A stretch of 64,000 bases of DNA. Source: an uncultured Pelagibacteraceae bacterium. Lineage in GTDB: Bacteria > Pseudomonadota > Alphaproteobacteria > Pelagibacterales > Pelagibacteraceae. Under the pieces are notes generated by a model that did not search any database, had not been told where the DNA came from, and was given only the letters and a program-made list of their open reading frames with translations. The stretch lies in the NCBI GenBank assembly GCA_902616645.1, contig CACMTO010000006.1, forward strand, positions 1 to 64,000, read 5' to 3'. Position 1 is the first letter of the stretch, and every line of letters begins with the position of its first letter. Positions 38,883 through 46,729 of this stretch are shown here, one piece after another. The translations under genes and the position numbers were made by a program.

Positions 38883-39902
38883 ATGAATAAAACAGATGCA
38901 TTAATAATTGGAGCAGGTCCAACTGGTTTATTTACAGCACATCAATTGAAATTAATTGGACTTAATTGTGAAGTTGTTGACAATTTAGATAAGATTGGTG
39001 GCCAATGTATTGAGCTTTATCCAGACAAACCAATTTACGATATACCCGCAGTTCCTGAGTGTACTGGTGAAGAATTAACAAATAATTTAATTAAACAATT
39101 AAATCCATTTGATATTAAATTTCATTTAAATGAAAGAGTAGAAGAAGTAAAAAAAGAAAATGATAATTGGTTAGTCAAAACAAGTAATGGCACTTCTTTT
39201 TCAACCCCAAACGTTATAATTGCTGGAGGAGTCGGTTCATTTGAACCAAGAAAGTTTTCACCGAAAGATTGTGAAAAATTTGAGGATAAGTCATTATTTT
39301 ATTCTGTAAAAAATAAACAGATTTTTAAGGGTAAAGTCGTATCAATTTTTGGAGGGGGAGATAGTGCATTAGACTGGGCTATTGAATTATCTAAAGATTG
39401 TAGTGTTAATTTAATACACAGAAGAGATGAATTTAGAGGTGCACAAGCCTCAATAGATAAAGTACACAATCTTGCTAAAGAAGGGAAAATAAATTTATTT
39501 ACAAAATATCAAATGGCTTCAGCAATAGGAGATCAACAACTAAAAAGTATTGATATAAAGCATGATAACAATGGAGTTAAAAACTTAAAAACTGACTATG
39601 TTTTGGGTTTTTTTGGTTTAATCATGCAACTTGGTCCAATAGCTAATTGGGGACTTAACATCGATAAAAAAACTATTGAAGTAGATACAGAAAAATTTGA
39701 GACTAATCAAAAGGGTATTTATGCAGTGGGAGATATTTGTAATTATCCTGGAAAACTAAAGTTAATTTTATCAGGCTTTCATGAAGGAGCTTTGGCGGCT
39801 AGGGCTTGTTTTAAACTAGCAAGACCAAATGAAAAATATAGATTTGAATTTACAACGACTTCCACGAATTTATTGAAACGGCTTGGAAAAAAGAGTGATT
39901 GA
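38883..39902 (+). CDS. Thioredoxin reductase-like ferredoxin--NADP+ reductase
   Basis: IIGAGPTGLFTAHQL FAD motif, GGGDSALDWAIEL NADP motif, YAVGDI; TrxR-like without the CxxC redox site. Confidence 0.9.
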   Translation: MNKTDALIIGAGPTGLFTAHQLKLIGLNCEVVDNLDKIGGQCIELYPDKPIYDIPAVPECTGEELTNNLIKQLNPFDIKFHLNERVEEVKKENDNWLVKTSNGTSFSTPNVIIAGGVGSFEPRKFSPKDCEKFEDKSLFYSVKNKQIFKGKVVSIFGGGDSALDWAIELSKDCSVNLIHRRDEFRGAQASIDKVHNLAKEGKINLFTKYQMASAIGDQQLKSIDIKHDNNGVKNLKTDYVLGFFGLIMQLGPIANWGLNIDKKTIEVDTEKFETNQKGIYAVGDICNYPGKLKLILSGFHEGALAARACFKLARPNEKYRFEFTTTSTNLLKRLGKKSD

Positions 39903-40521
39903 GCTTTTTTCTGCTAATACTCCAAATGGTAAAAAGATCAGTATAATGCTTGAGGAGATCGGTTATGAATACAAAGTAGTTAAAGTTGATCTTGATAAAG
40001 GAGAGCAGTTTAAACCAGAATTTAAAAAAATAAGTCCATTAAGCAAGATACCAGTAATTATTGATCACGATAATAATAAAAATATTTTCGAGTCTGGTGC
40101 AATCTTAATCTATCTAGCTGAAAAAAGCGGAAAATTTTATGACGAAAAAGATCGATTAGAAATTAATCAATGGTTAATGGCACAAATGGGTTACGTAGGA
40201 CCCATGTTAGGACAACATCATCAATTTCATTATTATAATCCAGGCAAAAGCCATTTTGGAGAGGAAAGATATTTTAAGATATCAAAAAGAATATATAGTG
40301 AGCTTGATGAAAGATTATCAAAAACAAAATTTTTATCAGGTAATAATTATACAATTGCTGACATAGGTACTTTTCCATGGATAGCCCGCCACGAATGGCA
40401 TGATATTGGTTTAAAAAATTATAAAAATTTAACCAGATGGTACGTTGAAATTTCTGAAAGAGATGCAGTTAAAAAAGGTTTTTCCTTTATGAAAGAAAAC
40501 GAGCATCCACCAAAACCTTGA
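39895..40521 (+). CDS. Glutathione S-transferase family protein
   Basis: N-terminal thioredoxin-like LFSANTPNGKKISIMLEE, KIPVIID, ESGAILIYLAEK; GTG 39895 (or TTG 39883) start overlapping the FNR gene. Confidence 0.9.
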   Translation: MIELFSANTPNGKKISIMLEEIGYEYKVVKVDLDKGEQFKPEFKKISPLSKIPVIIDHDNNKNIFESGAILIYLAEKSGKFYDEKDRLEINQWLMAQMGYVGPMLGQHHQFHYYNPGKSHFGEERYFKISKRIYSELDERLSKTKFLSGNNYTIADIGTFPWIARHEWHDIGLKNYKNLTRWYVEISERDAVKKGFSFMKENEHPPKP

Positions 40522-40626
40522 TTAATTCATCGAGCTCAATAATCTCATTAAAGACACAATTATCCCATGCCCTGATAGTTCAATGGCTAATATTATAATT
40601 ATGATTAAAATTATTTTTTTATTCAT
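40522..40626 (-). CDS. Tiny putative single-TM membrane protein (34 aa)
   Basis: Manually translated: MNKKIILIIIIILAIELSGHGIIVSLMRLLSSMN; start overlaps the upstream ORF stop as ATGA; ends 1 nt before the GST stop. Confidence 0.45.
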   Translation of the reverse strand: MNKKIILIIIIILAIELSGHGIIVSLMRLLSSMN

Positions 40627-40760
40627 CTAGTTAAAACAAATAGCAATAGAAGACCCCAGAAGAAAGCATAATAAAAATAAATATATTTTTTTGTAAAATT
40701 GTAAGTAATCGGATTATGTACTTTTTTATTTTTTTTTTTGTAAGTTAATTTTTTAGTCAT
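40623..40760 (-). CDS. Small putative single-TM membrane protein (45 aa)
   Basis: MTKKLTYKKKNKKVHNPITYNFTKKYIYFYYAFFWGLLLLFVLTR; start overlaps dksA stop (ATGACTAA); basic N-terminus then TM helix. Confidence 0.5.
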   Translation of the reverse strand: MTKKLTYKKKNKKVHNPITYNFTKKYIYFYYAFFWGLLLLFVLTR

Positions 40761-41277
40761 CTGCGTGTACCTTTTCGTTTTTTTCATGTTTTTCTTGAGC
40801 TGCAATTGTATATTTTGCAACTGGTCTTGCCATTAATCTTTTTAACCCAATAGGTTCAGCAGTATCTAAGCAATAACCATATGTATCATCTTTTATTCTT
40901 AACAATGCTTTATCAATTTCAGAAATTAATTTAATTTGTCGATTTATAGCTTTCATTTCAACATTTTTATCAGTGTAAGAGCTTGCTTGATCTACTATAT
41001 CTGCAGAAATACTATTATCATCCATAGTACCATTATAAAGACTTTCATTGTTAGCTTTAACCAAATCTTTTCTCCATTCTTGTAATTTTATTCTAAAAAA
41101 TATTTTATGTTTTTCACACATGTATTTCTCTGTTTCTTTAGGAAGATAAGATTTTGATATTTTGATAGGATTTTTATCAGGCTCTTTAATTTTAGTTACA
41201 GTTTTTGGCTTTAATTTAGTAATTGCCTTAACTTTTGGTTTAACTACTTTTTTTTTAACTTTACTAGTTTTTGGCAT
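40753..41277 (-). CDS. dksA: DksA/TraR-family RNA polymerase-binding protein
   Basis: C-terminal YGYCLDTAEPIGLKRLMARPVAKYTIAAQEKHE; coiled-coil region; start at internal ATG MPKTSK preferred. Confidence 0.88.
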   Translation of the reverse strand: MPKTSKVKKKVVKPKVKAITKLKPKTVTKIKEPDKNPIKISKSYLPKETEKYMCEKHKIFFRIKLQEWRKDLVKANNESLYNGTMDDNSISADIVDQASSYTDKNVEMKAINRQIKLISEIDKALLRIKDDTYGYCLDTAEPIGLKRLMARPVAKYTIAAQEKHEKNEKVHADD

Positions 41278-41356
41278 ATTTCTGAATTGAATTCGGAGAA
41301 GTATATTCAGCAAATTAAGGGTGTCAAGCAACATTAATTATTGTAAATATTTAATA

Positions 41357-42226
41357 ATGAAATTCAAAATTTTAATTCCAATTTACAACGATTGGCAATC
41401 GGTCTTAAAACTTTTAGAGAATATAAATTCCACCATTGAAAATTTAAATCATGAAATATCAGTCGTAATAATTAATGATGCTTCCAATCATGATCGTCCT
41501 GATGAAGTGGGAAATTTTGAAAATATTACCTCTATCAAAATTTTAAACATGAAAATCAATCAGGGACATACCAGATGTATCGCCACTGGATTAAAATATA
41601 TTATTGAGAAAGAGGATTTCGATTACATTATACCTATGGATGGTGATGGAGAAGATAGACCTGAAGAAATTTCTGAGTTTACTCAAAATGTTAAAGATTC
41701 AAAAAATAAGATTATTGTAGGAGAGAGAATTAAAAGATCTGAAAATCTCTCATTCAAAATTTGTTATCATTTGCATAAAATCATTACATTAACTTTTACA
41801 GGCAAATCTATTAAATTTGGTAATTTTACATGCTTACCAAAATCTACAGTTGAAAAGATGGTTAATGAAAAGGCTACTTGGAATAGTTTTTCAGGTTCGT
41901 TGAGAAAAATAGAGGATCAATTAATAGCAATACCTTCCACAAGAGGAACTAGGTATTTTGGTCCATCTAAGATGAGCTTTTATAATTTGATAAAACATTC
42001 TTTATCTATCATAAGTGTTTTTAGAAAAATATTCTTAATTCGTTCTGCTCTTTTTGTAATTCTATATATTTTATTAATAAAAAGTAATGCCTCAATTATT
42101 ACTGCAATACCATTATTTGTTTTATTAACTGCAGTTTATTTAATTTCAAATTTAGCGTTAAGAGAAAATATGGAAGAATTTAAAAATTGTTTAAGCCAAA
42201 TAAATGATATTGAGAATATTAAATGA
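41357..42226 (+). CDS. Family 2 glycosyltransferase (dolichol-phosphate mannosyltransferase-like)
   Basis: FKILIPIYNDWQSVLKLLENI, IPMDGDGEDRPEEI; C-terminal TM helices; ATG 41357 preferred. Confidence 0.85.
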   Translation: MKFKILIPIYNDWQSVLKLLENINSTIENLNHEISVVIINDASNHDRPDEVGNFENITSIKILNMKINQGHTRCIATGLKYIIEKEDFDYIIPMDGDGEDRPEEISEFTQNVKDSKNKIIVGERIKRSENLSFKICYHLHKIITLTFTGKSIKFGNFTCLPKSTVEKMVNEKATWNSFSGSLRKIEDQLIAIPSTRGTRYFGPSKMSFYNLIKHSLSIISVFRKIFLIRSALFVILYILLIKSNASIITAIPLFVLLTAVYLISNLALRENMEEFKNCLSQINDIENIK

Positions 42227-46585: not shown

Positions 46586-46630
46586 TATTTTATAGCCTAT
46601 TTATACAATGCACGCAAGAGGTTGTATTTT

Positions 46631-46658
46631 GAGTCCGTAATTGAATCAAAAGTGAATC
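46631..46658. repeat. Cluster of three GANTC sites with GAATCAAAA direct repeat
   Basis: GAGTC 46631, GAATC 46643, GAATC 46654; second and third within GAATCAAAA direct repeats. Confidence 0.6.
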
Positions 46659-46729
46659 AAAACGTGAACATCAAAACTATATTTTGTATGCTTGTGGATA
46701 ACTCAAACCAGAGATAGTTTGTTGAGCTG

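Follow-up and report, generated by a model that had tools for sequence, protein, structure and literature searches.

Do the two tiny overlapping frames between dksA and a GST gene of an uncultured Pelagibacteraceae bacterium encode proteins, and if so, do these proteins act together? The frames lie on the minus strand of a 64,000-nucleotide stretch of contig CACMTO010000006.1, hereafter the window, and an initial annotation of its sequence had proposed a translationally coupled pair of small membrane proteins tied to dksA, perhaps a two-component partner or a regulator. We refer to the 45-amino-acid (aa) micro-gene and its family as m45 and to the 34-aa micro-gene and its family as m34. Both frames do encode proteins and are kept by strong purifying selection, and we incline, with some reserve, to the reading that they form a cooperating, coupled, and mobile two-part small membrane module that serves a larger membrane enzyme as accessory subunit or modulator. 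The features concerned are as follows.

40623-40760, minus strand: m45, 45-aa small membrane protein gene (ATG 40760-40758, TGA 40625-40623).
40522-40626, minus strand: m34, 34-aa small membrane protein gene (ATG 40626-40624, TAA 40524-40522).
40623-40626, minus strand: ATGA, stop/start overlap from m45 to m34, read in the window.
40753-40760, minus strand: ATGACTAA, 8-base overlap of the dksA end with the m45 start, read in the window.
40753-41277, minus strand: dksA, upstream of m45; host of the pair here, not its obligate partner.
39883-40521, plus strand: GST gene, convergent, its stop abutting the m34 stop.

Re-reading of the window returned the earlier coordinates and both peptides exactly, and the two consecutive overlaps do fill the dksA-GST gap, from the 8 bases shared by dksA and m45 through the ATGA to the m34 TAA set against the GST stop. 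On the minus strand the 3' end of dksA reads ...GCAGATGACTAA, a string within which the m45 ATG lies; the ATGACTAA overlap recurs in 77 examined pairs. In the window, m45 and m34 presumably share the dksA transcript. The open reading frame (ORF) list does omit the 34-aa frame, which appears at a 25-aa cut-off, and carries the m45 frame in a longer form, as a 65-aa ORF with a TTG start inside dksA.

Within the genus of the window, m34 was matched in 103 of 151 genomes at E < 1e-4 and m45 in about 80 of 151, counts to be read knowing that E-values for proteins this short depend on profile quality and that many genomes sampled are incomplete. For selection, the comparison drew on core DNA stretches from fetched loci, 162 different ones for m34 and 120 for m45. 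The ratio of nonsynonymous to synonymous substitution rates (dN/dS) was 0.08 for both genes in pairs of moderate distance; with each sequence used once, the corresponding ratio of proportions (pN/pS) was 0.13 for m34 (95% confidence interval [CI], 0.098 to 0.163; 74 pairs) and 0.10 for m45 (95% CI, 0.065 to 0.129; 58 pairs). Substitutions fall mostly at third codon positions, and shifted frames of the same DNA give ratios of 1.2 to 5.9. The initial annotation had named conservation and synonymous change in related genomes as the telling comparison, with lack of conservation and frames broken by indels (insertions and deletions) as the contrary outcome; both frames turn out to be kept across the genus, and synonymous changes dominate. 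Genus-wide conservation and dN/dS rule out chance ORFs. Such tight contact with dksA and GST in the window might suggest that the frames tune expression of these genes, or the 3' end of the message, with the peptides as by-products, but protein-level selection and the conserved residues described below speak against this, the dN/dS contradicts it, and the same peptides occur in unrelated contexts; we find it scarcely credible.

What kind of proteins are these? Each is shorter than about 60 residues, is conserved among relatives, and has one membrane segment predicted by hydropathy on a rough home-made scale, as in the class of small membrane proteins. m45 has a basic, lysine-rich N-terminal tail of about 22 residues followed by a single aromatic helix with the motif Y-Y-x3-W; F22, K25, Y30, Y31, W35, and L38 are strictly or nearly strictly kept, and AlphaFold predicts one helix (residues 17 to 44), the prediction being good from about residue 25. 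Basic residues mark the cytoplasmic end of a membrane protein (the positive-inside rule), and because they are in excess at the start of m45, its sequence suggests that this end is cytoplasmic. m34 consists of two lysines, a hydrophobic stretch, an invariant I15-E16-x-S18-G19-x-G21, and nearly invariant I22, S25, and R28 by column conservation. AlphaFold models it (mean predicted local distance difference test score [pLDDT], 90) as a short hydrophobic helix (residues 3 to 17) and a second helix (22 to 33) bearing S25 and R28, with a break at Ser-Gly-x-Gly. The basic start, hydrophobic core, and short second helix might also fit a secreted peptide with a signal-like beginning (MNKK plus a hydrophobic stretch) in place of a membrane subunit; however, the conserved Glu in I-E-x-S-G-x-G directly after the core is unlike a cleavage site, and conservation spans the end of the core and the part downstream, so that we give secretion little credence.

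m45 and m34 are two new small membrane-protein families, confined as far as searched to Pelagibacteraceae. Pfam and NCBIfam held no useful family match for either, with none to CydX or aa3 oxidase subunit IV at E up to 1. A PDB sequence search gave no match for m45 and only chance-level xanthan lyase matches for m34, for which a PDB fold search yielded nothing useful and PHROGs nothing convincing; in the literature on SAR11 small proteins we found no paper on the pair. An order sample of 217 genomes contained m34 in 122, all in two genera of the window's family, the window's own (g1) and a sister genus (g5), with no m34 in the other genera, and m45 was limited to the window's genus. A scan of 84,980 species genomes with a narrower m34 profile returned 149 loci, the best 80 of which are all titled Pelagibacter, Pelagibacteraceae, or Pelagibacterales, and in a class sample of 289 genomes the only matches were in the two g1 members included.

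Most genomes that seemed to have m34 without m45 carry a divergent relative, m45b, directly behind an aldehyde dehydrogenase or FadJ-like gene or near an agmatinase cluster. A two-sequence m45b profile also matches ordinary m45 genes (E 5e-5 to 1e-2), and m45 and m45b are therefore taken as one family; none of the 20 order-sample genomes with m45b carries m45. At the m45b loci (L279-L298), mostly after the aldehyde dehydrogenase or FadJ-like gene, some genomes have a longer C-terminal tail (76-aa frames).

Wherever m45 and m34 are adjacent, their spacing is tight. Counted from the end of the m45 stop, the start of m34 falls at -4, -1, or 0 in 194 of 194 adjacent pairs, a set that includes loci fetched twice and holds 121 different m34 DNA sequences; -4 occurs in 134 pairs, 0 in 35, and -1 in 25, and the tight spacing holds alike in the dksA, carB/MOSC, and PhyH contexts. 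This is the geometry of translational coupling, from which we infer ribosome restart. The proposal of a coupled pair of small membrane proteins thus draws support from spacing, selection, AlphaFold helices, and hydropathy, the coupling itself being read from geometry.

Is the pair bound to dksA? A tally of 186 distinct m34 sequences placed m45-m34 beside GST in 110, m34 between a GT39 and a GT2 gene in 33, m45-m34 beside an oxygenase-like gene (the carB/MOSC locus) in 11, m34 behind nadA in 6, and m34 directly behind dksA in 2; smaller classes include mrp-m34, and relatives offer a further site for the pair after PhyH. The sister genus has m34 by itself, with nadA, tRNA-Leu, or mrp nearby; solo m45 occurs before an agmatinase gene or behind a gene labelled p237. 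In one sister-genus locus (L161:4946-5159), and alike in L159, L162, L163, L167, and L168, m34 sits close behind tRNA-Leu(GAG), a typical insertion site. Where both genes are missing, little or nothing separates dksA from GST, and GT39 borders GT2 directly or overlaps it. Since the pair is found in many contexts and dksA and GST close up without it, the dksA link is local and not essential, and a specific tie to dksA is unsupported. The idea of a DksA regulator lacks support as well. So does the suggested two-component partner, with no histidine kinase or response regulator among the neighbours examined.

The changes of place are visible on a tree of trxR, GST, dksA, GT39, and GT2 (84 rows; FastTree). 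The GT39-m34-GT2 arrangement is found on branches that split early within the genus, dksA-m45-m34 in a derived clade, and the carB site on two separate branches; absence is scattered, and at least 18 state changes are needed, while the neighbour genes largely keep their order. In one genome (G098) the m34 start sits where the m45 start was, at the dksA stop, which amounts to one precise loss of m45. Recombination between related strains is a possible route for such movement.

That this neighbourhood varies is known. According to the indel passages of Wilhelm et al. 2007 (PMC2217521), HTCC1062 and Sargasso Sea SAR11 differ by gene indels in the vicinity of proteorhodopsin, ferredoxin, thioredoxin reductase, GST, and dksA. 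Among these are CDS 629, a MOSC protein that turns up elsewhere in the metagenome, and CDS 631; polymorphic gene indels of SAR11 are there reported to be under purifying selection, with the proteorhodopsin-dksA region among the variable places. Those passages do not mention m45 or m34, which make a further and much smaller occupant, also found elsewhere. The likeness lies in core-region genes present or absent between strains under purifying selection; unlike the annotated, ordinary-sized genes of those passages, m45 and m34 are tiny and change place as well as being present or absent. The dksA-GST junction has the look of an insertion hotspot (CDS 629 and 631 in the same passages are comparable). 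In four loci (L081:2899-5004, L171, L178, and L343) this junction holds other genes (a 243- to 246-aa protein without a Pfam match, MOSC, and PhyH). The MOSC gene beside m45-m34 also shifts, standing before m45 at the carB locus and after m34 elsewhere (L090:4549-4995 and tallied loci).

Small, hydrophobic, paired genes that are patchily lost and change places could be a membrane-active pair directed against phages or competitors (abortive infection, toxin-antidote, or two-peptide bacteriocin), which would explain both the patchiness and the moves. Yet each genome has one copy of each micro-gene, the distribution mostly follows the tree, and dN/dS is 0.08; viral contigs and phage records held no relatives of either gene, no double-glycine leader was seen in the sequence, and no Rfam family, hence no known antitoxin RNA, lies near 40.5 kb, Rfam comprising known families only. 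We regard this explanation as very unlikely.

Do m45 and m34 function together, or are they two real but functionally unrelated small membrane proteins, collected at tight junctions where small genes gather, whose co-occurrence reflects ancestry and joint deletion? With m45b counted, the order sample has both m34 and an m45-family gene in 104 genomes, one only in 26, and neither in 87 (Fisher p 2e-32, uncorrected for kinship). On the tree, eight independent pairs differ in m34, and m45 differs the same way in six and the opposite way in none (median p 0.03). Of the single-member genomes, 18 have m34 only (14 of them in the sister genus) and 8 the m45 family only; three of these eight lack GT39 altogether, which suggests that their assemblies leave out the stretch that bears m34 in their kin; a further two have a partial GT39 (G225 and G303).

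Several observations weigh against a cooperating module, and some of them favour unrelated proteins. Both genes have solo contexts; the sister genus has m34 only, and a partner search there with the m45b profile found no convincing m45; one clade keeps m45 without m34, and in two dksA-m34 genomes m45 is gone from that site. Neither protein, then, strictly needs the other. Because one deletion removes both neighbours, adjacent cases were left out of the contrasts, and what remains (about 2.5 versus 0) is too few to judge. One-sided conservation of the helices is weak evidence and suggestive only, shuffles scoring as high in 128 and 416 of 5000. Most genomes of the family carry GT39 whether or not they have m34, and GT2 too persists in genomes that lack m34. 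PhyH, MOSC, and other genes likewise gather at the dksA-GST junction (compare the indel passages of PMC2217521). On the other hand, the presence or absence of m34 matches that of the m45 family in 191 of 217 genomes, non-adjacent ones included, m45 and m45b substitute for one another, and m45 and m34 retain their start-stop coupling in each context in which they meet, and we think unrelated proteins possible but on the unlikely side. Joint function of m45 and m34 is likely, and we go no further because the non-adjacent contrasts are so few; that the two tend to be present or absent together and to move makes it testable.

How might a cooperating module work? Ribosomes ending dksA would restart at the overlapping m45 ATG, and those ending m45 would restart at the ATGA for m34; by such successive restarts the cell would produce both proteins in one place and at comparable levels. 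The lysine-rich tail of m45 would stay in the cytoplasm with its aromatic helix spanning the membrane, and m34 would insert a short helix carrying the invariant glutamate and the Ser-Gly-x-Gly break. The two would then pack against each other and jointly serve as accessory subunit or modulator, a role that is our best guess by analogy with CydX and AcrZ. CydX is a 37-aa subunit of cytochrome bd oxidase needed for oxidase function (PMC6005532, PMC4325964), and AcrZ binds the AcrB pump (PMC7267776). Like CydX, KdpF, AcrZ, CcoQ, and CcoS, m45 and m34 have fewer than about 60 residues, one predicted membrane helix, and few strictly conserved residues, are often in operons, and are easily missed by gene callers; unlike CydX-type proteins, they lack a Pfam or NCBIfam match and a constant operon partner, come as a pair, and change site between relatives.

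Which larger membrane enzyme might be the target? The constant neighbours are dksA, GST, GT39, GT2, trxR, ferredoxin, and proteorhodopsin. No constant linkage to the genes of one enzyme was found, the commonest enzyme neighbour, GT39/GT2, flanking m34 in those 33 of 186 sequences. By Pfam assignment GT39 is PMT_2 (PF13231) and GT2 is PF00535, and proteins of this kind make and use polyprenol-linked sugars. The GT39/GT2 pair is a weak candidate, though the best single one, because m34 lies in their operon in early-branching lineages. Strict dependence of m34 on GT39 is ruled out, many genomes having GT39 without m34, and m34 would be at most an optional modulator of GT39. We are rather doubtful of a more specific version, in which an obligate SAR11-specific module uses a buried m34 glutamate to modulate polyprenol-linked glycosylation (GT39/GT2) or some other inner-membrane enzyme and stays functional while moving between junctions. 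DPM2 and DPM3, small membrane subunits of dolichol-phosphate mannose synthase, offer a parallel in that they are small membrane proteins accompanying a GT2-type enzyme, just as m34, in part of the genus, is flanked by GT39 and GT2; the likeness drawn here is one of kind and context, and m34 is less than half their size. The bacterial GT2 appears by eye to have C-terminal hydrophobic segments of its own, so that, unlike in the DPM case, an anchor would not be needed.

SAR11 bacteria are globally abundant in the oceans and conserve local gene order (PMC3815206 and the passages of PMC2217521 cited above). In the gene set of many of their strains, m45 and m34 are an overlooked conserved single-copy pair of about 0.24 kb together, unknown to the profile libraries searched, and their movement between tight junctions while the neighbours stay fixed makes them a case for how very small genes move in streamlined genomes.

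Beyond dksA the window continues with a gene whose orthologue lies directly downstream of m34 in other lineages.

41357-42226, plus strand: GT2 glycosyltransferase gene (PF00535), divergent from dksA.

GT39 (PMT_2), which stands between dksA and GT2 in nearly all relatives, is missing here (41278-41357); a GT39 fragment with 65% identity to the query and one stop sits at the end of a different contig from this genome (G000:C21:6-530). Farther along, at 46620-46709 on the plus strand, the window carries the Rfam small RNA (sRNA) SAR11_0636 (RF01827; 108 bits).
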